A stretch of 31,591 nt of DNA. It comes from a virus. The notes beneath the pieces were generated by a model that was not told the DNA's origin, made no database searches, and saw only the letters and a program-made list of their open reading frames with translations. Of the stretch, positions 2,671-30,960 are shown piece by piece; the first letter of the stretch is position 1; every line of letters starts with the position of its first letter. The stretch lies in IMG/VR virus record IMGVR_UViG_3300025634_000008, positions 1 through 31,591 of that record; one strand, 5' to 3'. The position numbers and the translations under genes were made by a program.

Positions 2671-2777
2671 TTTACATACCCCTTACGGCAACGCGCACAG
2701 TGCATGACTTGAGCCGGTCCGTCGTAGTAGTACGTCAGTCCGTGCCAAACGTGTTTGAGCCACCATAAAAAGCTCAT
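2667..2777 (-). CDS. Small tryptophan-rich CxxC protein (36 aa)
   Basis: MSFLWWLKHVWHGLTYYYDG is followed by a CARC pair. The ATG overlaps the stop of the cytosine methyltransferase gene and the TGA overlaps the next micro-ORF, both as ATGA. The aromatic N-terminus may associate with a membrane; one CxxC pair alone could bind metal as a dimer. Function unknown. Confidence 0.5.
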   Translation of the reverse strand: MSFLWWLKHVWHGLTYYYDGPAQVMHCARCRKGYVK

Positions 2778-3859
2778 CCTCGCACCCTCTCCATCGCGTA
2801 TTCAAGCGTCATGGTGGATTCTTTTGTGAGGGCGTCAAGGATTGCGCGGCATACTCCCGTCGCAAGTCCGATCGGAATACTGTTTGCGATCATCTGGCCC
2901 CTCTGCGTTTTTGTCGCTCCGCACCAGTCGAACGTATCCGGGATGCTGTGCGCTCGCGCCATTTCCAGAAGCGACGGGTTGCGGCATACGACAAGTTTGC
3001 TCGCTTCGTTGGCGTGAAAAGAGTTTGACAGCACCGAGCCGAGGATTTCATCATCCTCAAAGGCCGAGGCCGAGGCCGAGGCCGAGTTGCCGCGTAGTCC
3101 GATCTTCAGCGTTGCCGCAGTTTTATTGCCGCGATGATGCGACTCTCCGGTAAACGAACGTAAAAATCCATCATCTGGCGACGGTCTGGCCTCTCCGTGC
3201 GAGTGCTCGACAATTGCAATAAGTTTCCCGCTTCCGCGTATATCGTGGCCGTGCCAGCTATGGGCAGCGAGGGTGTCGAGGGTGTCGAGGGTGTCGTCGA
3301 AGTGTGAATGATTCCCGGCTTTACATCCAGCCCGCTTTGCTAATATCCGCGCATCCTCGGCGTGATCGCGAATGTCGCGTATCCGCCGCGGCCCAGGCGT
3401 AGGGATAACGTGCAACAGATAATTCGAGTAGAACCACCGCTTCCGTTTCGTTACGTCCCCGAAGTCTTTGGCGTTGAGTCGCTCGGACCAAGGCGCGTTA
3501 ATCAACCGAGAAACCACGTTCTCCATGACGTATGGCGCGTCGCCGGCAAGGCGAAGGAAATCAGGCAGGCAGTTGCGCTCGTCGCCGTGCCCCGCGCGCT
3601 TCCCGGCAAGCGAGAACGGCTGACAGGGAGGGCCGCCGATAACCAGGTCATGCGGCGGCAGATCGGCGCGTTCCATCGTTTTCAGATCGCGCACCTCGGC
3701 CACGGGATGCCGCTGGTTGGCGTTGTACGCCTTGACGGCGCACGGCATGGTGTCGTAAGCAGCCACAACCTCGACGGCCAGCCCAAGCGCCTCTGCGGCT
3801 CGGTAAAGGCCCATATCGAAGCCCCCCAGGCCCGCGAATAGGGACACAACGCGAATCAT
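2774..3859 (-). CDS. DNA (cytosine-5-)-methyltransferase
   Basis: Motif I is SLFAGLGGFDMG (residues 6-17, S-adenosylmethionine binding), motif IV is GGPPCQPFS with catalytic Cys79, motif VI is ENV (113-115), a KRKRWF segment takes the place of motif VIII, and QRGQMIANSIPIGLA near the C-terminus matches motifs IX-X. At 361 residues it is a normal length. The target-recognition region between VIII and IX holds two in-frame tandem repeats, (DTL)3 and (SA)4. The enzyme would transfer a methyl group to C5 of cytosine in a specific site; no restriction nuclease gene is adjacent, so it is probably a protective orphan enzyme. Confidence 0.93.
   Translation of the reverse strand: MIRVVSLFAGLGGFDMGLYRAAEALGLAVEVVAAYDTMPCAVKAYNANQRHPVAEVRDLKTMERADLPPHDLVIGGPPCQPFSLAGKRAGHGDERNCLPDFLRLAGDAPYVMENVVSRLINAPWSERLNAKDFGDVTKRKRWFYSNYLLHVIPTPGPRRIRDIRDHAEDARILAKRAGCKAGNHSHFDDTLDTLDTLAAHSWHGHDIRGSGKLIAIVEHSHGEARPSPDDGFLRSFTGESHHRGNKTAATLKIGLRGNSASASASAFEDDEILGSVLSNSFHANEASKLVVCRNPSLLEMARAHSIPDTFDWCGATKTQRGQMIANSIPIGLATGVCRAILDALTKESTMTLEYAMERVRG
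3062..3085. repeat. Six-base tandem repeat (GGCCGA)x4 inside the methyltransferase gene
   Basis: Four uninterrupted copies of GGCCGA encode alternating Ser-Ala in the variable target-recognition region of the C5 methyltransferase. The unit length keeps the frame when copy number changes. Confidence 0.9.
3269..3295. repeat. Nine-base tandem repeat (GAGGGTGTC)x3 inside the methyltransferase gene
   Basis: Three exact copies encode (Asp-Thr-Leu)3. With the six-base repeat it makes this region a candidate for in-frame length variation. Confidence 0.9.
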
Positions 3860-12219: not shown

Positions 12220-12380
12220 CACAACGCGAGAGGAACGTGCTACTCGCCGCCGCGGGGCTCGGGTTTCTCTTTGCCGGACTGTTCGCGGTCGATCGGCTGT
12301 GGGGTGGCGTCATTGCCTTTCTCATCCTGTTGGCGATCGGCGTGTGGTCGCGAGAACAAATCCCTCTGCCGCCTCGGTGA
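12216..12380 (+). CDS. Small two-helix membrane protein (54 aa)
   Basis: MTQRERNVLLAAAGLGFLFA continues into two hydrophobic segments (about residues 8-24 and 28-43) with a short DRLWGG turn and a SREQIPLPPR tail. It is coupled to the leader upstream and to the integrase downstream (GTGA). A small membrane protein between repressor and integrase might act in superinfection exclusion, a common job for prophage-expressed membrane proteins; this is context only. Confidence 0.6.
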   Translation: MTQRERNVLLAAAGLGFLFAGLFAVDRLWGGVIAFLILLAIGVWSREQIPLPPR

Positions 12381-13480
12381 AGCGGCGCGGCCGCGGCGAC
12401 GGTAGCGTCCGCCAGCGCCCCAACGGTCTTTGGGAGGCGTCCTTGCGCTACATCGACCCGCTAACGAGCGTGCGCCGCCGTCTCTCGGTCTACGGCGCGA
12501 CGCGATCGGACGCCGTGGAAAAGCTCGATGCCGCTCGATCGCGCCTGCGTCGCGAACAGCGTCCCGCGGCGTCCCGCGTCACGCTCGGTGCCTACCTCGA
12601 GCATTGGCTCGAGAACGTCGTGCGCCCCACGCGCCGCCCGGCGACGTATCGCTCCTACGCCGCGACCATCCTCCACCTCGAGGCCTCCCCGCTCGCCGCC
12701 CACCCGCTGCGCGACCTCCAGCGCGCGACCTTGCAGCGAACCTTCGCCCGCTGGCCGGCGACTCGCACGACCGAGCTGGCCGTCGTGCTGCTGCGCGCCG
12801 CGCTAACCCAGGCGCTCGACGACGGGCTCCTGCTCGTGAATCCGGCGCTCGGGCTCAAGCCGCCGCGACGTGAGCCAGCCGAGATGCGGGCGCTCTCCCC
12901 GAATGAATGTCGCGCTTTGCTTCGGGCCGCTCGAGGCGACCGGCTGTGCGCGCTCTACGTCGTCGCCATCGCGACGGGGATGCGCCGTGGCGAGTTGTTC
13001 GCGCTTCGCTGGTCCGATGTCGATCTACGCCGCGGCGTGTTGCGCGTGGTGCGATCGTATGACCCGCACACGGCCACGATGGGGCCGGTAAAGACGCGCA
13101 GCGGTCGCCGGCAGATCGCGCTCGCGCCGGATACCGTGGCGGCGTTGCGCGCGCACCGCGACCGGCAGCGCCTCGAGGGATTGCCGGCCGAGCTCGTCTT
13201 TGCTGGCCCCGAAGGCGGCCCGCTCAACCCCGACCGCGTGCGCCGAGGTTCGTTCCTGCCGCTTCAAGCCGCTGCGAAGATTGCGCCGCCGGTGCGTTTC
13301 CACGACCTGCGCCACACCGCGGCGACGTTGATGCTCGGCGCCGGCGTGCATCCGAAGATCGTGAGCGAACGGCTGGGTCATGCGTCGATCGGCATCACGA
13401 TGGACCAGTACCAGCACGTTGCGCCCACGATGCAACGAGAGGCCGCGGCGAAGGTTAGTCGGCTACTGGGGCGAGGATGA
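12377..13480 (+). CDS. int: Tyrosine-family phage integrase
   Basis: The N-terminal arm-binding part contains GDGSVRQRPNGLWEASLRY, followed by a SAM-like core-binding domain (GAYLEHWLENVVRPTRRPAT). The catalytic domain has Arg203 (ATGMRRGELFALRW), H309-D-L-R312-H (HDLRHTAATLML), a LGHAS histidine and nucleophile Tyr345 (MDQYQHV). At 367 residues it is full length. I set the start at GTG 12377 because it overlaps the stop of the membrane protein (GTGA); a frame open from 12299 adds 26 residues read through that gene. It recombines attP at 13773-14005 with a tRNA-Pro gene in the host. Confidence 0.93.
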   Translation: MKRRGRGDGSVRQRPNGLWEASLRYIDPLTSVRRRLSVYGATRSDAVEKLDAARSRLRREQRPAASRVTLGAYLEHWLENVVRPTRRPATYRSYAATILHLEASPLAAHPLRDLQRATLQRTFARWPATRTTELAVVLLRAALTQALDDGLLLVNPALGLKPPRREPAEMRALSPNECRALLRAARGDRLCALYVVAIATGMRRGELFALRWSDVDLRRGVLRVVRSYDPHTATMGPVKTRSGRRQIALAPDTVAALRAHRDRQRLEGLPAELVFAGPEGGPLNPDRVRRGSFLPLQAAAKIAPPVRFHDLRHTAATLMLGAGVHPKIVSERLGHASIGITMDQYQHVAPTMQREAAAKVSRLLGRG

Positions 13481-13772: not shown

Positions 13773-13796
13773 GGCGGTACGAATGGCGGTACGGCG
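13773..13796 (+). repeat. Integrase arm-type repeats, integrase-side arm of attP
   Basis: GGCGGTACG occurs twice, 12 bases apart (13773 and 13785). The same pair recurs on the far side of the core in the same orientation. Confidence 0.6.
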
Positions 13797-13822
13797 CGCA
13801 ACGGCGCCGCGGCCAAGAAACG

Positions 13823-13844
13823 AAAAACCCCTGCGTAGCAAGGG
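13823..13844 (-). terminator. Intrinsic terminator matching a tRNA 3' flank
   Basis: On the minus strand CCCTTGC-TAC-GCAGGGG forms a 7-bp stem (one G-T pair) followed by TTTTTCG. It lies about 10 bases past the tRNA 3' end, so it probably belongs to the host-derived attachment sequence and restores tRNA termination after integration. Confidence 0.65.
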
Positions 13845-13854
13845 CTTTCGGCTC

Positions 13855-13898
13855 TCGGGCTGACAAGATTCGAACTTGCGACCTCTTGACCCCCAGAA
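13855..13898 (-). other. attP: attP core: 3' half of tRNA-Pro(GGG)
   Basis: Read on the minus strand the segment gives the loop CTGGGGG with anticodon GGG, the 3' anticodon strand TCAAG, variable loop AGGTC, a complete T-arm (GCAAG-TTCGAAT-CTTGT) and the 3' acceptor strand CAGCCCG plus A. The bases 5' to the anticodon do not pair, and no D-arm or 5' acceptor exists, so it is not a functional tRNA. Phage integrases commonly carry the 3' part of their target tRNA so that integration rebuilds it. Phage genes on both sides make this attP rather than attL or attR. Confidence 0.75.
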
Positions 13899-13980
13899 AG
13901 GTGCAGCCTTCGGGTGGGGTGTCGATTACGAGAGAATCAGGCTGTTTCGGGCCGTTCCGCAGGCGATTTCTGGGCCGTTA

Positions 13981-14005
13981 GGTGGTACGGTTTGGCGGTA
14001 CGGCG
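13981..14005 (+). repeat. Integrase arm-type repeats, far arm of attP
   Basis: GGTGGTACG (13981) and GGCGGTACG (13994) are 13 bases apart. TGGCGGTACGGCG (13993-14005) is identical to 13784-13796 on the other side of the core. Confidence 0.6.
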
Positions 14006-15878: not shown

Positions 15879-16051
15879 GCCGACACCGGATATTCAGCCT
15901 TCACGGCGTTGATCTCAGATTGCGGAGCGCCGCATTGGGCTAGGACCGCGAGGCGGTGGGCTAAGGTCGTGTTGTGTTCGAACCGCGAGGCGGTATCGTT
16001 GCCGACTTGAACCGGGGTCCCGGAGCAGTCGCAGGTGTGGGTGTTCTTCAT
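15875..16051 (-). CDS. First gene of the 14007-16051 operon (58 aa)
   Basis: MKNTHTCDCSGTPVQVGNDT carries a CxC pair; the rest is helical with one further cysteine (AHRLAVLAQCGAPQSEINAV). It starts at ATG 16049-16051 with GAAAGG at good spacing, about 35 bases after the predicted promoter start site. Being first behind a strong, apparently repressible promoter, it may be an early regulator, but its function is unknown. Confidence 0.6.
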   Translation of the reverse strand: MKNTHTCDCSGTPVQVGNDTASRFEHNTTLAHRLAVLAQCGAPQSEINAVKAEYPVSA

Positions 16052-17509: not shown

Positions 17510-17561
17510 GGTGATGCGCGCTTGGCCTCTTGACCGGCGCTTTGGAGGGACCGACGCCAGA

Positions 17562-19103: not shown

Positions 19104-19299
19104 AACCAATAACGTCGAGGTTGCCTGCATCCAGGCAGCTTTAAGTTGCGCGACGTGCGGCGTCGATGACCCGGATAGCCAGAACATCGGCGGCATCGAC
19201 GAGACAACCCGCGACGCGGCTCGTGAGTATCTGCGCCGTCAGTGGCAGTACGACGCGAACGAGGAACAGCCAGGCGACAATCCCGGGGGCAACGATTGA
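19096..19299 (+). CDS. Small acidic protein (67 aa)
   Basis: MPETNNVEVACIQAALSCAT is followed by CGVDD and an acidic, asparagine/glycine-rich tail. It overlaps the previous gene by 8 bases and the next by 4. Confidence 0.5.
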   Translation: MPETNNVEVACIQAALSCATCGVDDPDSQNIGGIDETTRDAAREYLRRQWQYDANEEQPGDNPGGND

Positions 19300-19676
19300 G
19301 CTCCTTCTTCTTTGCCCTCGCCGCTCTCGGTTCGTCGCTGTTGTTTATCGGAGGCGTGCTTTTGCTCGTAGGCGGCGGCTGGCTTTTGGCGCGAGCGTTG
19401 GCTGAAGTCGAGCGTGCGCGCAGTCACCGTATTAGCGCCGACGCGCAGTATGAAACGGTCAGCGCAGCGCGTGAAGCGATCGACGACCTCGAAGAACGCG
19501 GCCTCGGTTCGCGCGAGTTCGTCGCGCCAAACGACGCGGAGTTTGTCGAAAGCCTCCTCGCGCAACGACGTGCTCAAGGCGAGGAGCCAGACATTACCAC
19601 GATGGGCAACGAGCACATCGAGGAAACGTCGCCGATTCCCGCCGACGAAATGTACGTCCCGAGCCGAGGCTTGTGA
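19296..19676 (+). CDS. Membrane protein with cytoplasmic helix (126 aa)
   Basis: TTG start overlapping the previous TGA (TTGA). Hydrophobic residues 3-33 (FFFALAALGSSLLFIGGVLL, then LVGGGWLL) form one or two membrane passes, followed by a charged helix (LAEVERARSHRISADAQYET) and an acidic tail. Function unknown; a spanin or holin role is possible by architecture only. Confidence 0.55.
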   Translation: MSSFFFALAALGSSLLFIGGVLLLVGGGWLLARALAEVERARSHRISADAQYETVSAAREAIDDLEERGLGSREFVAPNDAEFVESLLAQRRAQGEEPDITTMGNEHIEETSPIPADEMYVPSRGL

Positions 19677-19679
19677 GCC

Positions 19680-20309
19680 ATGCCGCGCGGGAAAGTCAAT
19701 GACGCGGTTCGGGCGCTGCAAGAGGAGAACGCCCACCTTCGCGGGCTGCTTGAGATGAAAACGCCAAATACGACGACGTCATGGGCCGAGTTCGCATCGC
19801 AGCCCATGCGCGACCAAATGGCCGCTCAAGCACTCGTCGCCGAAAAGCTCGACACGCTACGCGCGCTCCGCTGGCTTGGATTCCAAGTTGACACGAGCGT
19901 CATGTCTATCCCTCAGCAAACCAAAGACCTTATCCAGGAGATATTCAATACTCCGGGATGCAAAAAGATTCTCGCGGCCGACATGGAAGATGCTAACGCG
20001 AATAAGGCGGCGGTGATTGCGCGGCTGGTAAAGACTTCGAGATACGGCAACGACGGTGATTCGGTTCGAGCGACGCAGCAGTTGGCGAAAATGTGCGACT
20101 GGAACGAAGGCGACAAGAACGTCGCCAAGGCTGGCGCCGCGCAAGTAAACCTTATGCAAATGTTCGCTTCGTCCGATACGCCTAAACGCGTGCAGAGCGA
20201 AGTTCTTGATCCCGACGCCATCATCGACGCGACGGATGTTTTCGTCCACGACATAGGCGAAGCGGCGCTGGTCGTCGATGAAGAACCTGTACGCAAGGCG
20301 CTCGCGTGA
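19680..20309 (+). CDS. Putative terminase small subunit
   Basis: It has an N-terminal coiled coil (VNDAVRALQEENAHLRGLLE) and a central region with helices around NKAAVIARLVKTSRYGND, then SVRATQQLAKMCDWNEGDKN, the sort of sequence seen in phage TerS proteins that bind pac/cos DNA. The C-terminus is acidic. It lies two genes before the large terminase. The call rests on position and general pattern, not a decisive motif. Confidence 0.5.
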   Translation: MPRGKVNDAVRALQEENAHLRGLLEMKTPNTTTSWAEFASQPMRDQMAAQALVAEKLDTLRALRWLGFQVDTSVMSIPQQTKDLIQEIFNTPGCKKILAADMEDANANKAAVIARLVKTSRYGNDGDSVRATQQLAKMCDWNEGDKNVAKAGAAQVNLMQMFASSDTPKRVQSEVLDPDAIIDATDVFVHDIGEAALVVDEEPVRKALA

Positions 20310-20716
20310 ACGAAGCCATGACCTGCACGGTCGTATCGTTCCCGACACGCAAGGAAGCCATCGCCGCCAAGCAGGCGTTTTATCGTGAACGGCGAGTTTC
20401 CGCGTCGTCGTATTATTGCGAGTCGTGCGATTGCTTCCACCTTCGCGCAAACATGAAACGGCTCCATATGTCCGGTCGCGCGTTAGAAGTGCTGCGTCTC
20501 ATCGGCATGGGACACACGTATGCCGAACTAGCAGGCATCATGGGGATTAGCCACGGAACGGTAAAATGGTACGTAGAAGAAATCAACTTCACTTTCGGCG
20601 CGCTCAATACCGCGAACGCCATCTGTATCGCGATCGCGCTCGGCGTCTTGAACCCGCTGACGTTCGTCCCTCCAATCAGAGAAAGATGTGACCATGCCTC
20701 AACCAACCCCGGTTAG
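20306..20716 (+). CDS. LuxR-type helix-turn-helix protein with N-terminal metal motif
   Basis: The C-terminal half (LHMSGRALEVLRLIGMGHTY, then AELAGIMGISHGTVKWYVEE and ALNTANAICIAIALGVLNP) is a full LuxR/GerE-type DNA-binding domain, including the GxxxxEIA-like recognition region and the final A-I-x-x-A-I-ALG helix. The first 50 residues contain YYCESCDCFHL, a probable zinc site. GTG start by GTGA. A regulator between the terminase subunits might control late transcription. Confidence 0.75.
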   Translation: MNEAMTCTVVSFPTRKEAIAAKQAFYRERRVSASSYYCESCDCFHLRANMKRLHMSGRALEVLRLIGMGHTYAELAGIMGISHGTVKWYVEEINFTFGALNTANAICIAIALGVLNPLTFVPPIRERCDHASTNPG

Positions 20717-20885
20717 CGTTACCGGCGAACAATGCAACGAGCGCGCTCGCGTCGTGTTCTACCAGTCCCTCGGATTGGTGGGCAAAGAGTTAGAAAAAGA
20801 GGTCATCAACCTCGAAAAGCTGCACGCGTTGGCGGCGGTATGCGAAGCGTGCGGCAACGACCTCGACGCGGCGTCGCCCGAATAA
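20694..20885 (+). CDS. Small protein with CxxC (63 aa), in frame with terminase
   Basis: MPQPTPVSVTGEQCNERARV leads to a helix (GKELEKEVINLEKLHALAAV) and CEACGNDLDAASPE. The ATG at 20694 has GAGA upstream. The TAA at 20883-20885 is followed, in the same frame, by the uninterrupted terminase frame, so it may be a separate gene or, if the stop is read through or is an error, the N-terminus of the terminase. Confidence 0.55.
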   Translation: MPQPTPVSVTGEQCNERARVVFYQSLGLVGKELEKEVINLEKLHALAAVCEACGNDLDAASPE

Positions 20886-21086
20886 CTTGAACCCAGCACT
20901 CCGAAAGCAGCCGCTTCTGAAGAAGCCCTACGGAAGCGGCTGGAAAGATTTAAGACCGACGCACGCTTCCGAATCGAGACGCTGTATTTTATTCGACTCG
21001 CTCAGACTCGCGAGATCGTCCGACTTCGCTTCAATGAAGCCCAGGTAAAGCTCTCCGAAACGCGCCAGTGGTTCATCGACCACCGG
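20886..21086 (+). other. In-frame upstream extension of TerL without a normal start codon
   Basis: The 67 codons between the TAA and the first ATG read as good terminase sequence: EEALRKRLERFKTDARFRIE, then EIVRLRFNEAQVKLSETRQW, which includes an EAQ motif resembling the TerL adenine-binding region. No ATG, GTG or TTG exists in this frame; CTG 20940 with GGAAG just upstream is the best non-standard candidate. Confidence 0.6.
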
Positions 21087-22898
21087 ATGCCGGTTCGCAT
21101 CATCATCTGCAAGGCGCGCCGAGCTGGGCTGTCAACCGGGGTCGAGGCGTTCATCTTCGATGACATAACGCGTCACGCGGAGTCCGATGCTCTCATTGTC
21201 GGCAATCAAATTAACCCGTCAGAGAACGTCCTTGCAATGTGTACGCGCTTCTGGGAGCACCTTCCAAAGGCGATACGCTTTGAGACGAGCGAAGGTCCGG
21301 TCATCGTTCCCGTTCGCCCCGACTTGCACCCGCGCTACAATAACAACCCGCCTAAAGACCTGCTAGAGTTTGCCGCACCGCTTAAGTCGCGCCTCTTTAC
21401 TGCCTCCGCGAAGTCGATCGACGCCTACTTAGGTTACGGTTTCCAAAACCTGCACGCTACCGAAGCCGCGTACTACGACAATGGGTGGGATTTGTTTCGC
21501 GCGCTTCAGCCGGCCCTTTCAGACGATGTTCACTCCGCGCAGTACATCGAGTCAACGCCGAACGGGCAGACCGGGAAAGGCGCGTGGTTCTACGAGCAGG
21601 TGATCGACGCAAAGCTGCGCGGCAAGACGGAGTTCGGCGAAACGCGTTTGCTGTTCATCCCGTGGCACGAGATGACGCACTCGTTCTCCAAGCCGTTCGA
21701 GGATATGAGCGAGCGCGCGGCGTTCGAGCGAAGCCTCAAGAAAAACGAACGCGACATTATGCTTCAGTTTCCAAACGTAACGCTGGAGCAAATGAAGTGG
21801 CGGCGCGCAAAAATCGCGCAGCCACCGTTCAATAAAGACGAAGATATTTTCGATCAGGAATTTCCTAGTGACATAGCCACGGCCTTTTTGCTCTCGGGGA
21901 CGTCGGTTTTTACTCGCGGTGCAATCAAGAAGTTGATGGCTGGCGTTCGCGAGCCGATTTGGCAGGGCGACATTTATTGGGGCGATAGCGACCGCTCAAA
22001 CGAGCGCGAGCCGATTCACGACCTCGTTCGCCGCCCGCACTTCTACACGCCAGCGCAAGCTCGAGCCGAGAACTTTGCATCGCACGTCACCGAGAAAAGT
22101 TACGACAGCCTGAAAGTCTGGCGCTGGCCGAGTCGCAACGAACGCATCGTCATTGCCGCCGACATTGGCCGCGGCAACCCGCTGACCGACGACGGCGACT
22201 ACTCTACGATTTGCGTTCTGGTTCTCAACGAGCTTGCCAAGGACGAGTTGATAATGACCTGGCGTGGCAAGCTAAACCCGATTCTGTTCGGCGAGGTGTG
22301 CGCGGCGCTGGCATGGGGCGTTCGCTATCGCGTCGGCGACAGCGTGAAGAAACCGTTGCTGGCTCCCGAATGGACCGGCCCCGGTTCGGCGACTTGTACC
22401 TACATCGACGAAAAGCGGCTGTACGAAGTCGACAAGTACCGGATGCCGGGCGTAACCGGGATGCCCAAGACCAAGCATATCGGGTGGGAGAGCAACTCCA
22501 AGACCAAGCCGTACTCCGTCAACTGGATGGTGCGGATGATCGAGAACGGCAGCGTCGAGATTCCCTCCGAGGAGTTGGTTCTGGAGATGAGCAGCTATCG
22601 CCAGAAGGACAACTTCGGCGACGAGGGGAGCTATGGCGGTGCCGGCGGGCACGACGATCTCGTGTCGTCATTCCAAATCGGTTGCGCCATCTTGCGCCTC
22701 GAAACGACGACGGTCCCGGGCGGCGACTCGGTGTCGATGATCGACATGGACTCCCCAATCTTCGGCCACGACAGCACCCTAGAGCCGTTCGACGAGTTGC
22801 TGCCGCAGGAGCCCGCGGAAGAAACCTACGGGCTGGAGATGCAGGACGACGAGTTCGCCCAAGGCGAGAGCGGGCTGTTCTGGGGCGACGGATGGTAG
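21087..22898 (+). CDS. terL: Terminase large subunit
   Basis: Numbered from the first ATG: Walker A-like KARRAGLST (9-17), Walker B region NLHATEAAYYD (121-131), coupling motif ESTPNG (155-160), and nuclease residues in AADIGRGNP (357-365) and GHDDL (521-525). The protein is the ATPase-nuclease that pumps DNA into the prohead through the portal and cuts it. The coordinates use the first conventional start, but homology-like sequence continues about 67 codons upstream, so the true N-terminus is probably earlier. The C-terminal 70 residues are acidic, as in many TerL tails. Confidence 0.92.
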   Translation: MPVRIIICKARRAGLSTGVEAFIFDDITRHAESDALIVGNQINPSENVLAMCTRFWEHLPKAIRFETSEGPVIVPVRPDLHPRYNNNPPKDLLEFAAPLKSRLFTASAKSIDAYLGYGFQNLHATEAAYYDNGWDLFRALQPALSDDVHSAQYIESTPNGQTGKGAWFYEQVIDAKLRGKTEFGETRLLFIPWHEMTHSFSKPFEDMSERAAFERSLKKNERDIMLQFPNVTLEQMKWRRAKIAQPPFNKDEDIFDQEFPSDIATAFLLSGTSVFTRGAIKKLMAGVREPIWQGDIYWGDSDRSNEREPIHDLVRRPHFYTPAQARAENFASHVTEKSYDSLKVWRWPSRNERIVIAADIGRGNPLTDDGDYSTICVLVLNELAKDELIMTWRGKLNPILFGEVCAALAWGVRYRVGDSVKKPLLAPEWTGPGSATCTYIDEKRLYEVDKYRMPGVTGMPKTKHIGWESNSKTKPYSVNWMVRMIENGSVEIPSEELVLEMSSYRQKDNFGDEGSYGGAGGHDDLVSSFQIGCAILRLETTTVPGGDSVSMIDMDSPIFGHDSTLEPFDELLPQEPAEETYGLEMQDDEFAQGESGLFWGDGW

Positions 22899-22903
22899 CC
22901 CGG

Positions 22904-22924
22904 ACCCTGTATATAGTCAGGCAA
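22904..22924 (+). repeat. Conserved late-region motif, copy 1
   Basis: CCCTGTATATAGTCAGGCAA (with a preceding A) starts 6 bases after the TerL stop. It matches the copy at 26445-26465 at 20 of 21 positions. CCTG...CAGG arms enclose an AT-rich centre. Likely a promoter element, operator or RNA processing site. Confidence 0.6.
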
Positions 22925-22959
22925 AACGAGGGCTTGGCGGGCCTAAGTATGGGTGTCGT

Positions 22960-23415
22960 ATGAGCAGCGGACGCCAGAGATTTGAGCATCGGTTTTACCG
23001 TGGGTTTAGTTCGTCGATTGCTTCGGACGGCTTAGATGAGCGATGGGCAATGCGGGTGTGCGACCAGTGCGGAACCGAGCATTTGGGTCCGGTCGCCTCC
23101 GACTACTCGCTCTGTTTTGACTGCGCCAACGAGCGCAACGAATACGCCTCGAAGTCCATCTCGATGAGCGTCGATGCGGCGGGGGACGATTCGACTCACC
23201 CGTCGCGCGTCAAGGATGGAACCAGCGGATTCAACATGGCGCTTCCGCCCGTCGTCACGGTTTTGCCGGAGAAAGACGCCTACGGGCAACACAAAGTTTC
23301 ATCGCGTCCGGTTGCAAACAACGAAGTCGGGTCCGGTCGCAGGCTCAAGGAAATGGCGAAGCGTTCCAACCTCACCGTCATGGAAACACCCAAACGTTCG
23401 GTCGGAGGAAGATAG
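22960..23415 (+). CDS. Zinc-ribbon head-region protein (151 aa)
   Basis: Residues 33-56 hold MRVCDQCGTEHLGP...LCFDCANER, a complete zinc ribbon. The remainder is polar, with a glycine/serine stretch and KEMAKRSNLTVMETPKRS at the C-terminus. It sits between terminase and portal, where minor head or portal-associated proteins are common. The start could be the ATG at 22960 or a later Met; no strong ribosome site precedes 22960. Confidence 0.6.
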   Translation: MSSGRQRFEHRFYRGFSSSIASDGLDERWAMRVCDQCGTEHLGPVASDYSLCFDCANERNEYASKSISMSVDAAGDDSTHPSRVKDGTSGFNMALPPVVTVLPEKDAYGQHKVSSRPVANNEVGSGRRLKEMAKRSNLTVMETPKRSVGGR

Positions 23416-23416
23416 A

Positions 23417-23956
23417 TTGCCTCGCGTAGACCCATTCGACGCAAACGGACAAGGACGCATCGAGTTTCTGCACCCTCACCCGACCTACGGGGACGTTTTC
23501 AATGCGCCTAGGCAAGAAGTTGAAACCCTCGCACATCGGTTAAACGTAGAGGGATATACTCTCGGGAAAACCGCCCCGGGTTCATGGGTTGTAAAATCCA
23601 ACCCACCACCAAGGAGTCACGTAGGCATGAGCTATATCAACGCCCTTTCTTCCCTTTCCAACCCGGTCGGTTCTCCGCCATCCGCAAAGCAACCCGCCAT
23701 CGGTGCCCCGCCTGCCGTTGCATCGCAGCCGCACATCGAGGCCCCGGCTTACGACGCTGGCATGGATCCCGCTTGGCACGGGATTCTCGATCCAAACGAC
23801 CACGCGCTTCGCAACGCGCTCTCGGAGATGAGCCCCGAAGTTCGGCAGTTGCTACTGATGCGTCTCGGAAAAATCCAGGCGCCTTCCGCTGCTCATCCGG
23901 CGATTCCCGTTGGTGCAGCTCCAGCTACGACATCGCAAGCTCCCGGAAACATTTAG
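23417..23956 (+). CDS. Hypothetical head-region protein (179 aa) with internal start
   Basis: TTG start (MPRVDPFDANGQGRIEFLHP) with an excellent GGAGGA site. The first domain has VETLAHRLNVEGYTLGKTAP. At 23627 an in-frame ATG (MSYINALSSLSN) has its own AAGGAG site at ideal spacing, so a 109-residue C-terminal product is also likely. The shared part is Pro/Ala-rich with a helix (LRNALSEMSPEVRQLLLMRL). Nested products of this kind occur in head assembly genes (lambda C/Nu3), but no protease motif is seen here. Confidence 0.6.
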   Translation: MPRVDPFDANGQGRIEFLHPHPTYGDVFNAPRQEVETLAHRLNVEGYTLGKTAPGSWVVKSNPPPRSHVGMSYINALSSLSNPVGSPPSAKQPAIGAPPAVASQPHIEAPAYDAGMDPAWHGILDPNDHALRNALSEMSPEVRQLLLMRLGKIQAPSAAHPAIPVGAAPATTSQAPGNI

Positions 23957-23959
23957 CGC

Positions 23960-26041
23960 GTGAGCGCAACCACGCTTTCGAGCAACGGCTACACGCCGAA
24001 GGCGAAGTTCGATCGCCAGCAGGTCGAACGCCATCGCGCGAGCTTGCGTAAGGACGACGAATTTGTTGTCTTAACCGAGGAAGAAAAAGAGCAGTTCAAA
24101 ATCCTGCGCTACTGCGCCAAGCAGTTCGAGGATGCGTGCAAGGCGCGCAAGCCGTTCGAGACGTTCGATATTTGCTGGGCGCTGTTCAACGGCGATATGT
24201 GGAACGACCGTCGCCCGGTATGGCGCGCGTCCATCACCATCAACAAGATTCGCGCCTTCATCACGTTCATGCAGGCCGTGATGACCGACAACAAACCGCG
24301 CATCTCCGTCGAGCCGCTCGTTCCAGGCTCCGAAGATGCGTCGGACCTTTTGCGGAAACTCGTTGACCGCGACTGGGACGAGAACCAGATGCAACAGGTC
24401 ATCTCGACGTGGGTTCTCTACGGTCTGATTTGGGGATACGCGTTTGTCAAAGTGACCTACGACCCGTATGCCGATGGCGGTCGCGGCAAGCATTGTGCCG
24501 TTCCGATTCCGCCTTACCGCATCTACACGAACCGCACGGCGACCTGCATCGAGGATGCCGAGTTCATCGTTCACGTCGAGGACGTCACGATGGGCTGGAT
24601 TCGCAGAAACTTCCCCGATAAGGCCGAAGCCGCTTCGACGCTGCGCGGCATCCGTCTCAATGACAACTCGGACGCCGACCGGAACAAAGATTACGTCCGC
24701 GAAGGCACGCTGGGCAATACGCGCATCCAGTCGGCGATGGACATAAACGGGAACATCATCATGCCTCAACAGCCGATGAGTTCGCCGCACGCCACCGACG
24801 AGGACCGCGACACGATCGAAGTCGCAGAGCATTGGATGCGTGACGATTCGCTCGAATCGTACGAACGCCAAGTCGTCGAGAACGGCCGAGGGAAGTTCCA
24901 GCCCGTCATCAAGGACGGCTCCTACGTCATGGAAGTCGTCGGCAGCAAAACGATTATCAGTGAGATCGACGGACAGCCAACGGTCGTCCCGGTTCGGCGC
25001 GCCAAGATGGAGCCCGTCACCGAGAAAGCCTGGCGCCTGAAATATCCCAACGGTCGGCTGGTGATTATCGCGGGCGGCAAGATTCTGCTGCGCGACATTC
25101 CCTCACCGTTCCAGATCGACGGCTTCCCGTTTGCGATGTGGAAAGACTACGACGTCGGCGGATTCCACGGCCAGGGCGAGCCGTTGCCGCTTCGTTCGTG
25201 CGCGTTCGCTATCAACAAGATTGCCTCGCAGGTTTTCGAGATTCTCGAAAAGACCGGCAACCCGTCATGGAAAGTCAAGAAAGACGGCGGAGTCAATCTC
25301 ACCGCGGTCAAGAACCGCCCGGGGCTCGTCATCGCGATGGATACCCCCGACGCGTTGACGCCGCTGGAAAAGCCGCCGATACCGCAGGAGTTCTTCTCGC
25401 TCTACAAACTCATTAGCGACGGCATGGGCGAAGTCTCCGGCGTCAACGAGTCGGTCAAGGGCGCGCTCCCCGCGGCGAACACCGCCTTCGCAACGATGGA
25501 CCAACTGCAAGAGTCCGGGTCGGCGCCGTTGCGGCTCAAGGTTCGCAACATGGAAACGGGGATTTCCCGAATCGGAAAGCTCCGCATCCAGTTGATTCAA
25601 CAGTTCGACCAAGGCGCTCGTCCGCTGCGTCTCACGGGTGACGACCTCGCCGCTGGCGTCGTCGAGCCTGCGAGCAACGTATCGGTGCAGTTCCGCAAGT
25701 ATTCCAACGCCGACATTCAAGGCCAGGTCGAGTTCGGCGTCGTTCCGATCTCGTCGCTGTCGACTTCGCCGGCCGGAACGTGGAACAAGTGGATGACCTT
25801 GCTAGACAAAAAGCTGGTCGACCCGGTGTGGTGGCATTCCAAGTTCCGCATCGAGGGATACAAGTCGGAGTTGCCGCGTATGCTCAAGCAGCAGAAGCAA
25901 GATGCCGACGCCGAAGCCGCGCTCAAGAAAGCATCGAAGGTCGGCGGCAACCGAACGAGTCCAGCGAAACAGGCGTCGCGTCGTCGCCTGCCTCCGCCAT
26001 CGCAATCACCGACGCGAGAGGAAAACGCTAGGGTCCGCTGA
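23960..26041 (+). CDS. Portal protein
   Basis: This 693-residue protein follows terminase and precedes scaffold and capsid. It has the pattern of P22-type portals: FDICWALFNGDMWND, ITINKIRAFITFMQAVMTDN, then WVLYGLIWGYAFVKVTYDPY, a stem region with WMRDD and WRLKYPNGRLVIIAGGK, and FPFAMWKDYDVGGFHGQGEP, then a crown-like C-terminus (GVNESVKGALPAANTAFATM, LRIQLIQQF). The tail is basic. The dodecameric ring forms the DNA entry channel at one capsid vertex. GTG start. Confidence 0.85.
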   Translation: MSATTLSSNGYTPKAKFDRQQVERHRASLRKDDEFVVLTEEEKEQFKILRYCAKQFEDACKARKPFETFDICWALFNGDMWNDRRPVWRASITINKIRAFITFMQAVMTDNKPRISVEPLVPGSEDASDLLRKLVDRDWDENQMQQVISTWVLYGLIWGYAFVKVTYDPYADGGRGKHCAVPIPPYRIYTNRTATCIEDAEFIVHVEDVTMGWIRRNFPDKAEAASTLRGIRLNDNSDADRNKDYVREGTLGNTRIQSAMDINGNIIMPQQPMSSPHATDEDRDTIEVAEHWMRDDSLESYERQVVENGRGKFQPVIKDGSYVMEVVGSKTIISEIDGQPTVVPVRRAKMEPVTEKAWRLKYPNGRLVIIAGGKILLRDIPSPFQIDGFPFAMWKDYDVGGFHGQGEPLPLRSCAFAINKIASQVFEILEKTGNPSWKVKKDGGVNLTAVKNRPGLVIAMDTPDALTPLEKPPIPQEFFSLYKLISDGMGEVSGVNESVKGALPAANTAFATMDQLQESGSAPLRLKVRNMETGISRIGKLRIQLIQQFDQGARPLRLTGDDLAAGVVEPASNVSVQFRKYSNADIQGQVEFGVVPISSLSTSPAGTWNKWMTLLDKKLVDPVWWHSKFRIEGYKSELPRMLKQQKQDADAEAALKKASKVGGNRTSPAKQASRRRLPPPSQSPTREENARVR

Positions 26042-26059
26042 CGCTAGATAGGATTTGCC

Positions 26060-26440
26060 ATGTATCTCGATGCCCTAAAAAATGCCGGGTCCCAAGGTGG
26101 CGGTATGCCGCCCAACGCCGCGTCGCCCGGCCTTGGTCCGACCCCCTCATTGCCGGGACTCCCGCCGCCGCCGACCGGAACCGGAGCGATGCCGACGGGT
26201 GCGCCGACCAACACCAAGATGACGGCCGGGTCCGATGCGATCGCGTCGCTGCGAACGCTGCAAGGCTTCGTTCCGGCGCTTTACAACGACATTTCCGAGA
26301 TGATCAGCCGCATCAAAGGCGCGACCAGCGACAAGGCGGGAGACTCGCCGGGTCCGTCGGTTGGCGACCCGGGCATCCCGGGTGCGGCGCAACTCGACGC
26401 GTCGCCGACGATGGATTCGGGCGGTCCCGGCGCTCTGTAG
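26060..26440 (+). CDS. Gly/Pro-rich hypothetical protein (126 aa)
   Basis: MYLDALKNAGSQGGGMPPNA starts a long Pro/Gly/Ala/Thr-rich disordered stretch; the centre (SLRTLQGFVPALYNDISEMI) is one amphipathic helix, followed by another Gly/Pro/Asp/Ser-rich tail. AGGA lies upstream. Such disordered proteins near the portal can be head-completion or minor capsid factors; no direct evidence. Confidence 0.6.
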   Translation: MYLDALKNAGSQGGGMPPNAASPGLGPTPSLPGLPPPPTGTGAMPTGAPTNTKMTAGSDAIASLRTLQGFVPALYNDISEMISRIKGATSDKAGDSPGPSVGDPGIPGAAQLDASPTMDSGGPGAL

Positions 26441-26444
26441 CCTC

Positions 26445-26465
26445 ACCCTGTATATTGTCAGGCAA
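26445..26465 (+). repeat. Conserved late-region motif, copy 2
   Basis: CCCTGTATATTGTCAGGCAA (with a preceding A) starts 5 bases after a TAG, as in copy 1, and lies 63 bases before the basic protein gene. Only one base differs between the copies. Confidence 0.6.
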
Positions 26466-26527
26466 TTACGTTCCGTTCCTACGGATAGGCTTACGCCGTA
26501 ATCCTACCCGGGAAGGAGGAACGAACA

Positions 26528-26686
26528 GTGGCAAAACGCACGCACAAGCGCGGTAGCAAGAAAGCCATCGCGCGCAAGGCGGCCCGAAAGAGCCGGAAGC
26601 ACGAGTCGATGGGAATGCTGAAGGCTATCAAGCGCACTCACAAGCGCAAATCCCATCGCGGCAAAAAGCGCGTCTCGCACCGCTAA
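26528..26686 (+). CDS. Highly basic small protein (52 aa), putative DNA-condensing protein
   Basis: MAKRTHKRGSKKAIARKAAR and the rest of the chain contain no Asp and only one Glu; well over a third of residues are Lys or Arg, with several His. THKR occurs twice (TH-K-R near residue 5 and 37). The GTG start has the strongest ribosome site in the late region (GGAAGGAGGA, 26511-26520), and a terminator follows at once, so the gene seems built for high independent expression. Possible roles are DNA condensation in the capsid or scaffolding, as for histone-like phage core proteins; inference from composition and position. Confidence 0.7.
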   Translation: MAKRTHKRGSKKAIARKAARKSRKHESMGMLKAIKRTHKRKSHRGKKRVSHR

Positions 26687-26702
26687 ACCGCAATAACGGC
26701 GC

Positions 26703-26734
26703 GGGGCTGTTCGTTCAGCCCCCGTCGTCTTTTT
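26703..26734 (+). terminator. Intrinsic terminator after the basic protein gene
   Basis: GGGGCTG-TTCGTT-CAGCCCC is a perfect 7-bp stem followed within seven bases by TTTTT. It stands between the basic protein and the scaffold gene, so some transcription must read through or restart to reach the capsid genes. Confidence 0.65.
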
Positions 26735-26746
26735 CGTGAAGGACAC

Positions 26747-28000
26747 ATGGCGAAAAATAAACTGAGCAAGCCCGCTCCATCCGTGCCCAATGGCTCCGCC
26801 AAGGTTACTGCTCCGCAGTCTCCAAGCGCCGTCGAGCCGTTGACCGACGAGTTGAATCTCGTCCGAAAATTTACGCGTGAGAATCCCAAGGGCAGTCTGG
26901 CGGATACGCCCGAGGAAGTCGCGGCTTCGACGGTCTTAGACCCGTCCGCGCCGATCGAGAATTCCGCCGCCGAGCCAATCTCGGACACGCCGCCTCCGGC
27001 CGAGGAAACTCCGCCGACCGAAACTCCCGCCGAGCCAGCGATTGAAACGCCAGCGCCGACGTCGGAAGCGTCGCCCGCTACGCCTGCGAAGCCTGCGCCA
27101 GCAGCGCCGGCCGCGACAAGCGAAACGCCAGCAGCGCCCGCCGTTGCGACCGAACCGCCCAAGCCGAGCTACGCGCCCGACGAGCAAATCCATCTGCTCG
27201 AAGGCAGCGAACCGTGGACGCGCCAGCAGGTCGTCGCCGGGCTTCAAGACCGCGCAACGCTCCAACCGAAGGCCGCCGAGTCCGAGAGATTCCGCGCCTT
27301 GTTCGGCAACGACTACGAGACGGCTGAGAAGAATTGGAAGCCGATTCTGGACAGCCTTCGCGAGAATCCGGAGCGCGCTCAGGTCGCCAACGAAGTGCTC
27401 GCCGCCGACCCCGGGATGCTCGAATACCTGCGCCAGAGCGCCCAATACTGGAAGTCGCTCACGCCCGAGGAGCGCGGCGTCGCCGGAGGCACCGCAGCCG
27501 CGGCCGCACCGTCGTCCATCCCGCAGAACGACCCGCGCATCGAGAAGTACGAACGCACCTTCGCCACGATGCAGAAGCAGCTCATCGACAATCGCGTGCG
27601 CTCCGAATGGGGGCAGGTTTTCGAAAAGTTCCCCTTCATGCGAACCGACCAAAAGGCTCGTGAAGCACTGACGGCAGCGGCTGGGCTCATGTTCACCGCC
27701 GACGAGAAGGCCGGGAAAGACCCGCTCGAGTGCCGTGGTTTACTCGAGGCCATGAGTCAGAACGCCGTATTCCTCGAGGCGGCAGCTATCGCGTATGACC
27801 AGCGCGCGCAACACGGCGCGCCCGGTTCCGCATTGCCTGCCCCCACGATTGCGGCGCCTCCGTCTCCGGGTGTGGGTCTAGCGTTACTTGGCAGCAGCGG
27901 GCCTGGCCCGTCGGGTCAACCAGCGGCTGCTCCTCCAAAAGTTTACCGAGGCGACCCCGATTCGGCCGTCGCCGCTTTCATCAACGACCATCCAAGATAA
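26747..28000 (+). CDS. Putative capsid scaffolding protein
   Basis: At 417 residues it is directly before the major capsid gene. The first 140 residues are Pro/Ala/Glu/Thr-rich and disordered. The middle (HLLEGSEPWTRQQVVAGLQD, then RFRALFGNDYETAEKNWKPI) and later segments are helical and acidic, and the C-terminus has a further Pro/Gly linker and AFINDHPR. High helical and disordered content plus position are typical of scaffolds, which guide capsid assembly and then leave. No protease motif is seen. Confidence 0.7.
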   Translation: MAKNKLSKPAPSVPNGSAKVTAPQSPSAVEPLTDELNLVRKFTRENPKGSLADTPEEVAASTVLDPSAPIENSAAEPISDTPPPAEETPPTETPAEPAIETPAPTSEASPATPAKPAPAAPAATSETPAAPAVATEPPKPSYAPDEQIHLLEGSEPWTRQQVVAGLQDRATLQPKAAESERFRALFGNDYETAEKNWKPILDSLRENPERAQVANEVLAADPGMLEYLRQSAQYWKSLTPEERGVAGGTAAAAAPSSIPQNDPRIEKYERTFATMQKQLIDNRVRSEWGQVFEKFPFMRTDQKAREALTAAAGLMFTADEKAGKDPLECRGLLEAMSQNAVFLEAAAIAYDQRAQHGAPGSALPAPTIAAPPSPGVGLALLGSSGPGPSGQPAAAPPKVYRGDPDSAVAAFINDHPR

Positions 28001-28012
28001 GGACATAACAGC

Positions 28013-28975
28013 GTGTCAAACGGACTTCCGTACGTCAGCACCAACGAAGTCAATACCTTCGCGAACCGATACGTTCGGAACAACATCGTCGACCAGCGAT
28101 ACAAGTCGCGGGCGTGGTTGGGCATTCTGAATTCGGTCGGACGCATCGTTCGAATCGACGGCGGCTCGATCGTCAGCCAGCCGATTCTTGCCCAGCCGAA
28201 TCAGACGGCGGCTTCGTACTTCGGTGCGGACCTGCTCGATGCCGACGCGCAAGAGGAGTTCACGAACGTCGAAATCCGCTGGTGCGCTGCCTACGCTTCG
28301 GCGACCATCAACGGAACCGACAAGCTCCGCTGCACCGGACGCGAAGCGACCTTGAACATCGTCAAGGCCAAAACCGAGTCGGCCTTCATGGCCTGCTTCG
28401 ATAAGGTCGGTTCGTTCGTCTTCGGCAACGGCAACGGCAACGGCGGCAAGGACTGGGACGGCATGGGCGCCGGCATCAACGACGCAGCCGGCTTTCAAGT
28501 GTATAACGGCATCGACCGCGTTGCGAATCCCTGGTGGCAGTCGCAAGTGTTCGACCCCGGTACGCCGACCGCGCTGTCCAGCGCCTCGATGATGACGCTC
28601 TTTACCGAGTGTCAGACCGACGAGGAGCGCATCCAAGTCATCATCACGACCAAGGCCGGATACACGGCGTACTGGCAACTGCTCACGCCGCAAGAGATTC
28701 TCGCCGACGACAGCATCGGCAACCTCGGTTTCAACAACATCGCCTTCCAGGGTTGCGCGCTCGTCATGGACGCTGGCTGTCCGGCCGGCTACATGTACTT
28801 CGTGAACCTCGACCACGTTCGGCTGTTCCTGCACACGCAGCGGCAGTTCGAGTTCCAAGGCTTCCAGCGTCCGTACAATCAGGACGTCGAAGCCGGTCAG
28901 GTTCTCGCAATGGGGAATTTCGAGAACAGAAAATGCAGCGCCTCCGGTGTGTACCGGAACATCAGCAACGCGTAA
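28013..28975 (+). CDS. Major capsid protein
   Basis: A 320-residue protein with FANRYVRNNIVDQRYKSRAW at the N-terminus, a strong beta/alpha core with GGKDWDGMGAGINDAAGFQV and WWQSQVFDPGT, and YMYFVNLDHVRLFLHTQRQF followed by PYNQDVEAGQVLAMGNFENR near the end; the last segments are typical of HK97-fold capsid proteins found after a scaffold (DNA, NTQ-like substrate loops). GTG start. It would form the icosahedral shell. Confidence 0.85.
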   Translation: MSNGLPYVSTNEVNTFANRYVRNNIVDQRYKSRAWLGILNSVGRIVRIDGGSIVSQPILAQPNQTAASYFGADLLDADAQEEFTNVEIRWCAAYASATINGTDKLRCTGREATLNIVKAKTESAFMACFDKVGSFVFGNGNGNGGKDWDGMGAGINDAAGFQVYNGIDRVANPWWQSQVFDPGTPTALSSASMMTLFTECQTDEERIQVIITTKAGYTAYWQLLTPQEILADDSIGNLGFNNIAFQGCALVMDAGCPAGYMYFVNLDHVRLFLHTQRQFEFQGFQRPYNQDVEAGQVLAMGNFENRKCSASGVYRNISNA

Positions 28976-28989
28976 GGAGCGGCAGAATC

Positions 28990-29184
28990 ATGGCACACAA
29001 GAAATCATCCAAAGGCGCAGCCGGAGACGGTTCCAAGGTTCCCGCGGAAAGCGTCGAGCTCGAAGGCTCAATCATCACGGCCGCTCGTTCGACGATGGTC
29101 GCGCAATCCTACGAAGATGGCTACCCGGAAGTTCCGGGACGCCTGCACATGCGCCAAGCCGCAGTCGGAAAAGTCCACCACTAA
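28990..29184 (+). CDS. Small head-region protein (64 aa)
   Basis: MAHKKSSKGAAGDGSKVPAE, followed by a short strand and a C-terminal GYPEVPGRLHMRQAAVGKVH. The ATG has AGGAG upstream at good spacing. It lies just after the capsid gene, a position often held by head decoration or stabilising proteins. Function not established. Confidence 0.6.
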   Translation: MAHKKSSKGAAGDGSKVPAESVELEGSIITAARSTMVAQSYEDGYPEVPGRLHMRQAAVGKVHH

Positions 29185-29229
29185 CTTTCACCAACGCACT
29201 CGTTGTCCATAGGGGACGGAGAGAACATC

Positions 29230-30234
29230 ATGCCAATTTGGTCAACCACCCTCGACGCAACCACCAACAACCTGCCGAATGACGGCCCGCGTGGGATGCA
29301 GTCCTACCGCCCGTCACCGACGGCGGCAACCTACCTTCCGGGAACGGTTTTGCAACTCGTTCCGATGGACCAGCAACTCTACGCCGACCACGCGACGGTG
29401 CAGCCGCTTCCGGCTGGCACCACGCTGACGAAAATCGCCGGTGTCGTTGCGGGTTCGTGGGGAGGCTTCGACGGATCGCTCGACCAGGCTCCGGCCTACG
29501 TTTCGGTCGCGAACCCGCAAGGGCTCGTGCGCGGAACCACGTACATCGAGTCGATCGTCAAAGGCTTGGGGTACGTCCTCGTTGACCAATCCGGCACCGC
29601 GGCTGTCACCATCGTCGATGGCCTCGAACTGGTTTCCTCGCGCGTTTCGGCTGGCTACGCTCAAGGCGTCGCCGTCTCGACCGCAGTCGGCGCATCCCTC
29701 ATCGCCGTCGCGTCGTTGCCGTCTACCGGCATCGGCTCGTCGCTGACCGCCGCTGCGTTGGCGCAAGCCGCGCAGGTTGCAACGGTTGCAACTCCGGCCG
29801 CGGGCGACATTCTCAACCTGACGATTCAAGCACCGTACTCGCAAGGGTTCCCGAGCGTCGCGCAGACCTACACCTGGTCGCTGATGCTCAACTCGACCAC
29901 GGCCGCTTCGGCGACCACGGCCGCAGCCGCGATGGTCGCGTACCTCAATGCGACGTCGAACTTCAGCAAGTATTTCCTGGCGACCAACACGGCCGGTGCA
30001 ATCACCGTCACGGTCAACGCCAACTCCGCGCCGTTCCAAGTCACCTTCGGTTCGGGAACGAACCTGACCGGCGCATTCTACACCAGCATTTCGGGCATGG
30101 TCGCCAACTCGCTGACCTTCGCCTCGAACGTCACGGGCGCAGGCGGGACCACCTTCGCTGCGACCGGCGCAAACTTCACCGGCGGAACGGGATACAAGGG
30201 CCTCACCCCGGCCTTCATCTACGGAGAATTCTAA
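29230..30234 (+). CDS. Putative capsid decoration or structural protein (334 aa)
   Basis: The start at ATG 29230 (MPIWSTTLDATTNNLPNDGP) is preceded by GGAGAG; a frame open from 29203 is less likely. The N-terminal third (YLPGTVLQLVPMDQQLYADH) resembles decoration-type beta barrels; the C-terminal two thirds is Ala/Thr/Ser/Gly-rich beta sequence (ATTAAAAMVAYLNATSNFSK, TNTAGAITVTVNANSAPFQV) like an exposed Ig-like or fibre-type domain. It follows capsid genes, so surface decoration is the best guess. Confidence 0.65.
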   Translation: MPIWSTTLDATTNNLPNDGPRGMQSYRPSPTAATYLPGTVLQLVPMDQQLYADHATVQPLPAGTTLTKIAGVVAGSWGGFDGSLDQAPAYVSVANPQGLVRGTTYIESIVKGLGYVLVDQSGTAAVTIVDGLELVSSRVSAGYAQGVAVSTAVGASLIAVASLPSTGIGSSLTAAALAQAAQVATVATPAAGDILNLTIQAPYSQGFPSVAQTYTWSLMLNSTTAASATTAAAAMVAYLNATSNFSKYFLATNTAGAITVTVNANSAPFQVTFGSGTNLTGAFYTSISGMVANSLTFASNVTGAGGTTFAATGANFTGGTGYKGLTPAFIYGEF

Positions 30235-30237
30235 TCT

Positions 30238-30960
30238 GTGGCAACGCTTCTAGCGAAGATCGAACGCGACAGCATCCTGGCTCGAGCGGCGGAAAAAGAA
30301 AACACCATCGTCGAAAAGACGTGCCGCATTTCGCTGGCACACGATTGGCCGAACGCGCAGAAACCGCGCGCGATCGAACTACCGTGGTGCAAGGGACTCG
30401 GATCGCCCAAGACGCTGCTCATCCTTCGCCCAGGCGCAACGATCGAACAGCCGCTGGACAAGTGCCACGCGTGGTTCGGTCCGTTCGACCTGTTCAAAGA
30501 ATACGAGGCCGAGCTTCACAAGGTTCCGACGAACGAGAAGCTCATCGCCGCCATGCGCGACCGTATCGCCAGCGAGAGCGCCCGATACCTCACGCGCTAC
30601 GACTACCCGCGCGGCAATGGTCGCGGCAGCCAGCCGGACATGACTCCGGTTGGTCCGCACCGTTCGCCTGACATTACGATTCAGGTCCTCGATGCCGAGG
30701 GAAATCACGACGAGCCGATTCGGCTGTACGAGGTCTATCAAATCGGCGAGTTCGACGAACTGGCCGGCACGTTCCAGCAGCCCGAGTCGCAAGAGCAAAT
30801 CGAGTCGCGCTTCCAGGCGCAGCTGCTCGAGAAGGACCGCGAGGTTGCGGCCATGCGTCGCGAGCTCGCGCAGCTTGCGGGCATGGTCAAGGGCGTCGCG
30901 CTCACCGCGGCGGGCAAAGGCAAAGCAGTCGCCGCTGAACCAGCGGTAGCAGGGGAGTAG
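30238..30960 (+). CDS. Hypothetical structural protein (240 aa)
   Basis: GTG start. N-terminal charged helix (IERDSILARAAEKENTIVEK), a beta-rich centre (KTLLILRPGATIEQPLDKCH), then a coiled coil at about 180-215 (ESRFQAQLLEKDREVAAMRR) and an Ala/Gly/Lys tail. It sits between the capsid cluster and a zinc-ribbon protein, in the head-completion or neck segment. Family not recognised. Confidence 0.6.
   Translation: MATLLAKIERDSILARAAEKENTIVEKTCRISLAHDWPNAQKPRAIELPWCKGLGSPKTLLILRPGATIEQPLDKCHAWFGPFDLFKEYEAELHKVPTNEKLIAAMRDRIASESARYLTRYDYPRGNGRGSQPDMTPVGPHRSPDITIQVLDAEGNHDEPIRLYEVYQIGEFDELAGTFQQPESQEQIESRFQAQLLEKDREVAAMRRELAQLAGMVKGVALTAAGKGKAVAAEPAVAGE

Follow-up and report, generated by a model that had tools for sequence, protein, structure and literature searches.

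A tRNA-Pro(GGG) 3′ half beside a tyrosine integrase gene as the probable attP of a phage, and its likely host phylum

The DNA analyzed here, termed the window, is a stretch of 31,591 nt that spans positions 1 to 31,591 of IMG/VR record IMGVR_UViG_3300025634_000008, and the site of interest lies between positions 13773 and 14005. A 42-nt segment on the minus strand (13896–13855; CTGGGGGTCAAGAGGTCGCAAGTTCGAATCTTGTCAGCCCGA) corresponds to the 3′ half of a tRNA-Pro(GGG). It runs from the anticodon loop (position 32) to the discriminator base A73 and comprises, in order, the loop CTGGGGG, the stem segment TCAAG, the variable loop, the T arm, the 3′ strand of the acceptor stem, and A73. Farther along the same strand (13849–13823), a hairpin of 12 pairs followed by a T run forms a predicted intrinsic terminator. 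The segment is flanked by four copies of the sequence GGYGGTACG, all on the plus strand. Three are GGCGGTACG (13773–13781, 13785–13793, and 13994–14002) and one is GGTGGTACG (13981–13989). The left and right pairs have start-to-start spacings of 12 and 13 nt, and they are located 62 and 85 nt away from the tRNA half.

The adjoining gene (12299–13480, plus strand) encodes a 393-aa tyrosine integrase, as judged by matches to phrog_1 (E = 1.2e-74) and PF00589 (E = 2.1e-25) and by the catalytic motifs in its translation (TGMRRGEL, HDLRH, LGHASI, and DQYQH, containing the R, HxxR, H, and Y signatures). The gene ends about 375 bp from the tRNA half. A weak SAM-like match (residues 95–124) begins after ∼90 N-terminal residues, and a Pfam search of the protein returned no match to an arm-binding domain. 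The initial annotation had described this locus as an attP built on a tRNA-Pro(GGG) 3′ half, with four repeats of one orientation spaced by 12 to 13 bases and an integrase gene next to it. Each of these elements is recovered in our analysis, and the span given there for the tRNA half plus terminator (13823–13898) is correct to within 2 bases.

The half is also found in bacteria as part of a full tRNA-Pro, as the initial annotation had anticipated. All 42 nt are identical to the corresponding portion of complete tRNA-Pro(GGG) genes in three metagenome-assembled genomes (MAGs) carrying loci L021, L022, and L023, with a per-genome E value of ∼1e-15. The match is bounded by the same two bases in all three cases, with no identity beyond either edge. 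We refer to this shared segment as the core. The 5′ limit of identity at CTGGGGG recurs in the two copies present within another bacterial locus (L115), as well as in several unrelated attP-like halves from viruses. From this limit, strand exchange is likely to occur within the seven nucleotides of the anticodon loop (13890–13896, minus strand).

Upstream of the core, the window departs from the tRNA sequence (CCTTT where the tRNA has CTTGA), so no tRNA is encoded at the site. In agreement with the earlier claim that the tRNA is incomplete at this locus, ARAGORN identifies no complete tRNA anywhere in the window, and an Rfam search with the half tRNA gave no match. The exact 42-nt core was not found in other IMG/VR contigs. 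Similar tRNA-Pro(GGG) 3′ halves are present in 17 other IMG/VR contigs, just one of them within a complete tRNA. One IMG/VR contig, IMGVR_UViG_3300026522_000015 (L004 and L016), carries a tRNA-Pro(GGG) half plus trailer at each of its ends, the same both times; i.e., it was either opened at its own attP or represents an exact attL/attR pair.

The predicted terminator was previously counted as part of the core along with the tRNA half. Only the tRNA half retains this status. The phage trailer differs from that of each host tRNA identified, and core alignments to genomes of the phylum that includes L022 mostly end at A73 or a few bases from it. Likewise, the core extended by 13 nt into the trailer was not found in GTDB contigs because the trailer is phage-specific. 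Since the host alignments stop at or near A73 and the trailers differ, the terminator is phage cargo that would be re-supplied to the tRNA, and it lies outside the shared core.

To model attL in silico, the 5′ half of each host tRNA was joined to the window from CTGGGGG onward and scored by ARAGORN. The joined sequences yield tRNA-Pro(GGG) with each of the three hosts (L021, L022, and L023), and ARAGORN finds no tRNA in attP or in the predicted attR. The phage core carries no encoded CCA, and CCA is encoded in all three of the exactly matching host genes. Integration at this attP would therefore be expected to swap a CCA-encoding tRNA 3′ end for one without CCA, and the rebuilt tRNA would then need the CCA-adding enzyme.

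These characteristics make it very likely that the site is an attP on which a lambda-type (arm-binding) tyrosine integrase acts, and that this enzyme would insert the phage into a bacterial tRNA-Pro(GGG) gene at the anticodon loop. In the mechanism that we propose, the integrase would link the core to the arm-repeat pairs on each side of it, and strands would be exchanged within CTGGGGG. The phage 3′ half and its own terminator would complete the host's 5′ half, and the host's original 3′ half would end up at the opposite end of the prophage. The tRNA is predicted to stay functional because the phage supplies both the 3′ half and the terminator that complete the host 5′ half.

Within this proposal, the four GGYGGTACG repeats would serve as arm sites for the integrase. 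A comparable repeat set arose by chance in 12 of 20,000 simulated 360-bp stretches, and outside the site the 31.6 kb hold one more exact copy (minus strand, position 1778). Short repeats of this type are not rare on the scale of the whole window: some 9-mer was present three times within 235 bp in 23 of 200 simulated windows (∼1 in 9). For this reason, the weight of the arm evidence rests on the position of the repeats beside the core, and the assignment as arm sites remains putative.

Integrated elements provide a comparison for the window. In seven of them (L113, L114, L115, L116, L063, L069, and L077), all from the Eremiobacterota phylum, an integrase gene adjoins a complete tRNA-Pro(GGG) and is oriented as in the window, such that the integrase 3′ end faces the tRNA 3′ end. 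The clearest case, the L116 element (genome G110), has a complete CCA-less tRNA-Pro next to its integrase and a displaced tRNA 3′ half with CCA located 16.5 kb from it; 46 nt up to A73 are common to both tRNA copies. A pair of repeats occurs at each end of this element, both pairs on the same strand: TAGGTTGTA at 17560 and 17572 (spacing 12 nt), and TAGGTTGTA with TAGGCTGTA at 1279 and 1290 (spacing 11 nt). The distances between these pairs and the core are 63 and ∼95 nt, similar to those in the window. By sequence comparison, L116 is the window's layout as it would look after integration, split between attL and attR.

Several of these loci have additional features. In L116 (17643–17719 and 1182), a CCA-encoding tRNA 3′ end was swapped for a CCA-less one upon integration. 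L115 (genome G090) has a complete tRNA-Pro(GGG) at 3568–3642 and an integrase, followed by a second 3′ half at 16008 that adjoins a further integrase remnant (63% over 67 aa), an organization that resembles a tandem array. In L117 (3165–3409, genome G058), a second T-arm/3′-end fragment with CCA comes after a tRNA-Pro(GGG), within ∼170 nt of it, and an integrase remnant is adjacent.

Could the tRNA half instead have nothing to do with integration, as a relic left by chance or as the gene for a tRNA fragment? We consider this explanation extremely improbable. It would account for the fact that no lysogen of the phage was seen, but it leaves unexplained the exact limits at the anticodon loop and A73, the adjoining integrase gene, the arm repeats, and the many integrated elements from the likely host phylum that are arranged alike.

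If the site is an attP, it could be free or occupied, and the gene content around it bears on this point. The left side encodes DNA methyltransferases, a Cas4-type exonuclease, an HNH protein, and a replication-initiation protein assigned from a weak match; the right side encodes terminase, portal, and major capsid proteins. Genes from both flanks have homologs together in single viral genomes of ∼50 kb (G155 and G157), and this co-occurrence indicates that both flanks belong to one phage. Because phage genes are present on each side, the gene order is that of an unoccupied attP and not of a prophage end. The alternative is that the site represents the attR end of a prophage, with a displaced tRNA half beside host DNA, or a junction of tandem elements at one tRNA gene. 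The displaced 3′ halves in L116 and L115 do resemble the half in the window, and the L115 array is tandem-like. However, this alternative is very improbable given the phage genes on each flank, the joint homologs in G155 and G157, and the presence of one arm repeat type on both sides of the core. The earlier suggestion of a free or circularly permuted genome thus holds in part. The phage is unintegrated at this site, as phage genes flank it left and right. The record is a linear fragment that lacks an end repeat, and circular permutation is not evident from it.

Two of the genes on the left encode DNA methyltransferases (678–1418 and 2774–3859), and the second of these has up to 81% DNA identity to a stretch of genome G112 from the likely host phylum. 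The structural module (19242–30960) includes small genes bearing a LuxR-type HTH, followed by terminase, portal, capsid, and downstream genes, and its gene order is kept in ∼50 kb viral genomes (G151, G154, G155, and G157).

Attachment sites of this type are well known. In the Islander collection, 3760 of 3919 islands carry a tRNA 3′ fragment and 2083 use site A, where crossover is in the anticodon loop (PMC4383910); a 3′-fragment tRNA attP with an anticodon-loop crossover is among the commonest kinds. As with site A, the attP described here has a tRNA 3′ fragment that begins at the anticodon loop and includes the 3′ end, an adjoining tyrosine integrase gene, and predicted regeneration of the tRNA. 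It differs only in the phage, the host phylum, and the arm sequence. The attP of Boilgate-type mycobacteriophages at tRNA-Lys(TTT) is similar in its tRNA 3′ half, functional tRNA at attL, and flanking arm-type sites (PMC10865867). In addition to the different tRNA and host, Boilgate shows five differences, whereas there are zero mismatches between core and host tRNA here.

Fionnbharth, which exhibits tRNA-dependent lysogeny, also has a tyrosine integrase acting at a tRNA site and arm-type sites around its core (PMC10865867). In phages of that type the core is short (10 or 17 bp), and a tRNA encoded by the phage is required (PMC10865867). In contrast, the half is predicted to be restored in full here, and the window has no tRNA gene. 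Dependence on a phage-encoded tRNA was rejected for this phage because no tRNA gene occurs in the 31.6 kb of its genome that the window covers and the modeled attL rebuilds the tRNA. The mechanism is standard and already known, and the new elements are the phage and its host link only.

The host probably belongs to the phylum Candidatus Eremiobacterota. Of the three exact tRNA matches, two (L022 and L023) are in this phylum, and both of these tRNA genes are downstream of HU and aroQ-like genes. The close relatives of the portal (66% aa identity) and capsid (65%) proteins are confined to this phylum, where both occur in genome G083. The third match, L021, comes from a MAG labelled Bacillota and is a complete tRNA-Pro in which all 42 nt are identical, and so a host in that Bacillota lineage or in some other phylum would also be compatible with the attP assignment. 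We regard such a host as unlikely. Among 299 genomes of L021's phylum, only L021's own genome (G001) has the half within 2 mismatches, and portal matches there reach just 24–35% over parts of the protein, vs. the relatives in G083 at 66% for the portal and 65% for the capsid. All of this host evidence comes from MAGs, in which binning errors are possible.

When 149 genomes from the Eremiobacterota phylum were searched at the DNA level with both halves of the window, no lysogen of the phage was detected, and short matches of at least 90% identity were observed; because no lysogen was found, attL and attR of this phage itself have not been seen. Tetranucleotide usage does not discriminate between the candidate hosts (correlation 0.34–0.52). 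In a text search of open papers, no title joined Eremiobacterota and phage.

A related integrase is encoded in 126 of the 149 genomes of L022's phylum (titled Candidatus Eremiobacterota). In L170 (genome G085), a remnant of an integrase C terminus that is 76% identical over the last 50 aa adjoins a tRNA-Pro(GGG). The closest full-length integrases, at 49–50% identity, are encoded next to tRNA-Asn(GTT) in L118 and L119. Since these nearest relatives adjoin tRNA-Asn, members of this integrase family differ in their target, a pattern suggestive of target switching.

Among the viral genomes that share the structural module, none of the four (G151, G154, G155, and G157) has a PF00589 integrase. The viral contigs related by capsid or portal were found to have neither the integrase nor the core, and for that reason they do not help to map attP. 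The integrase–attP cassette appears to be present in the window but missing from those four genomes. One tentative scenario is that this is a temperate phage within a group of ∼50 kb phages that infect Eremiobacterota and otherwise have no tyrosine integrase, and that it gained the cassette from integrative elements in the phylum whose targets are tRNA-Pro(GGG) and tRNA-Asn.

The integrase and attP together form a compact unit (12.3–14.0 kb in the window) whose predicted target is open to plasmid testing. More broadly, the tRNA half offers a sequence-based host link for a phage that probably infects a member of an uncultured phylum.
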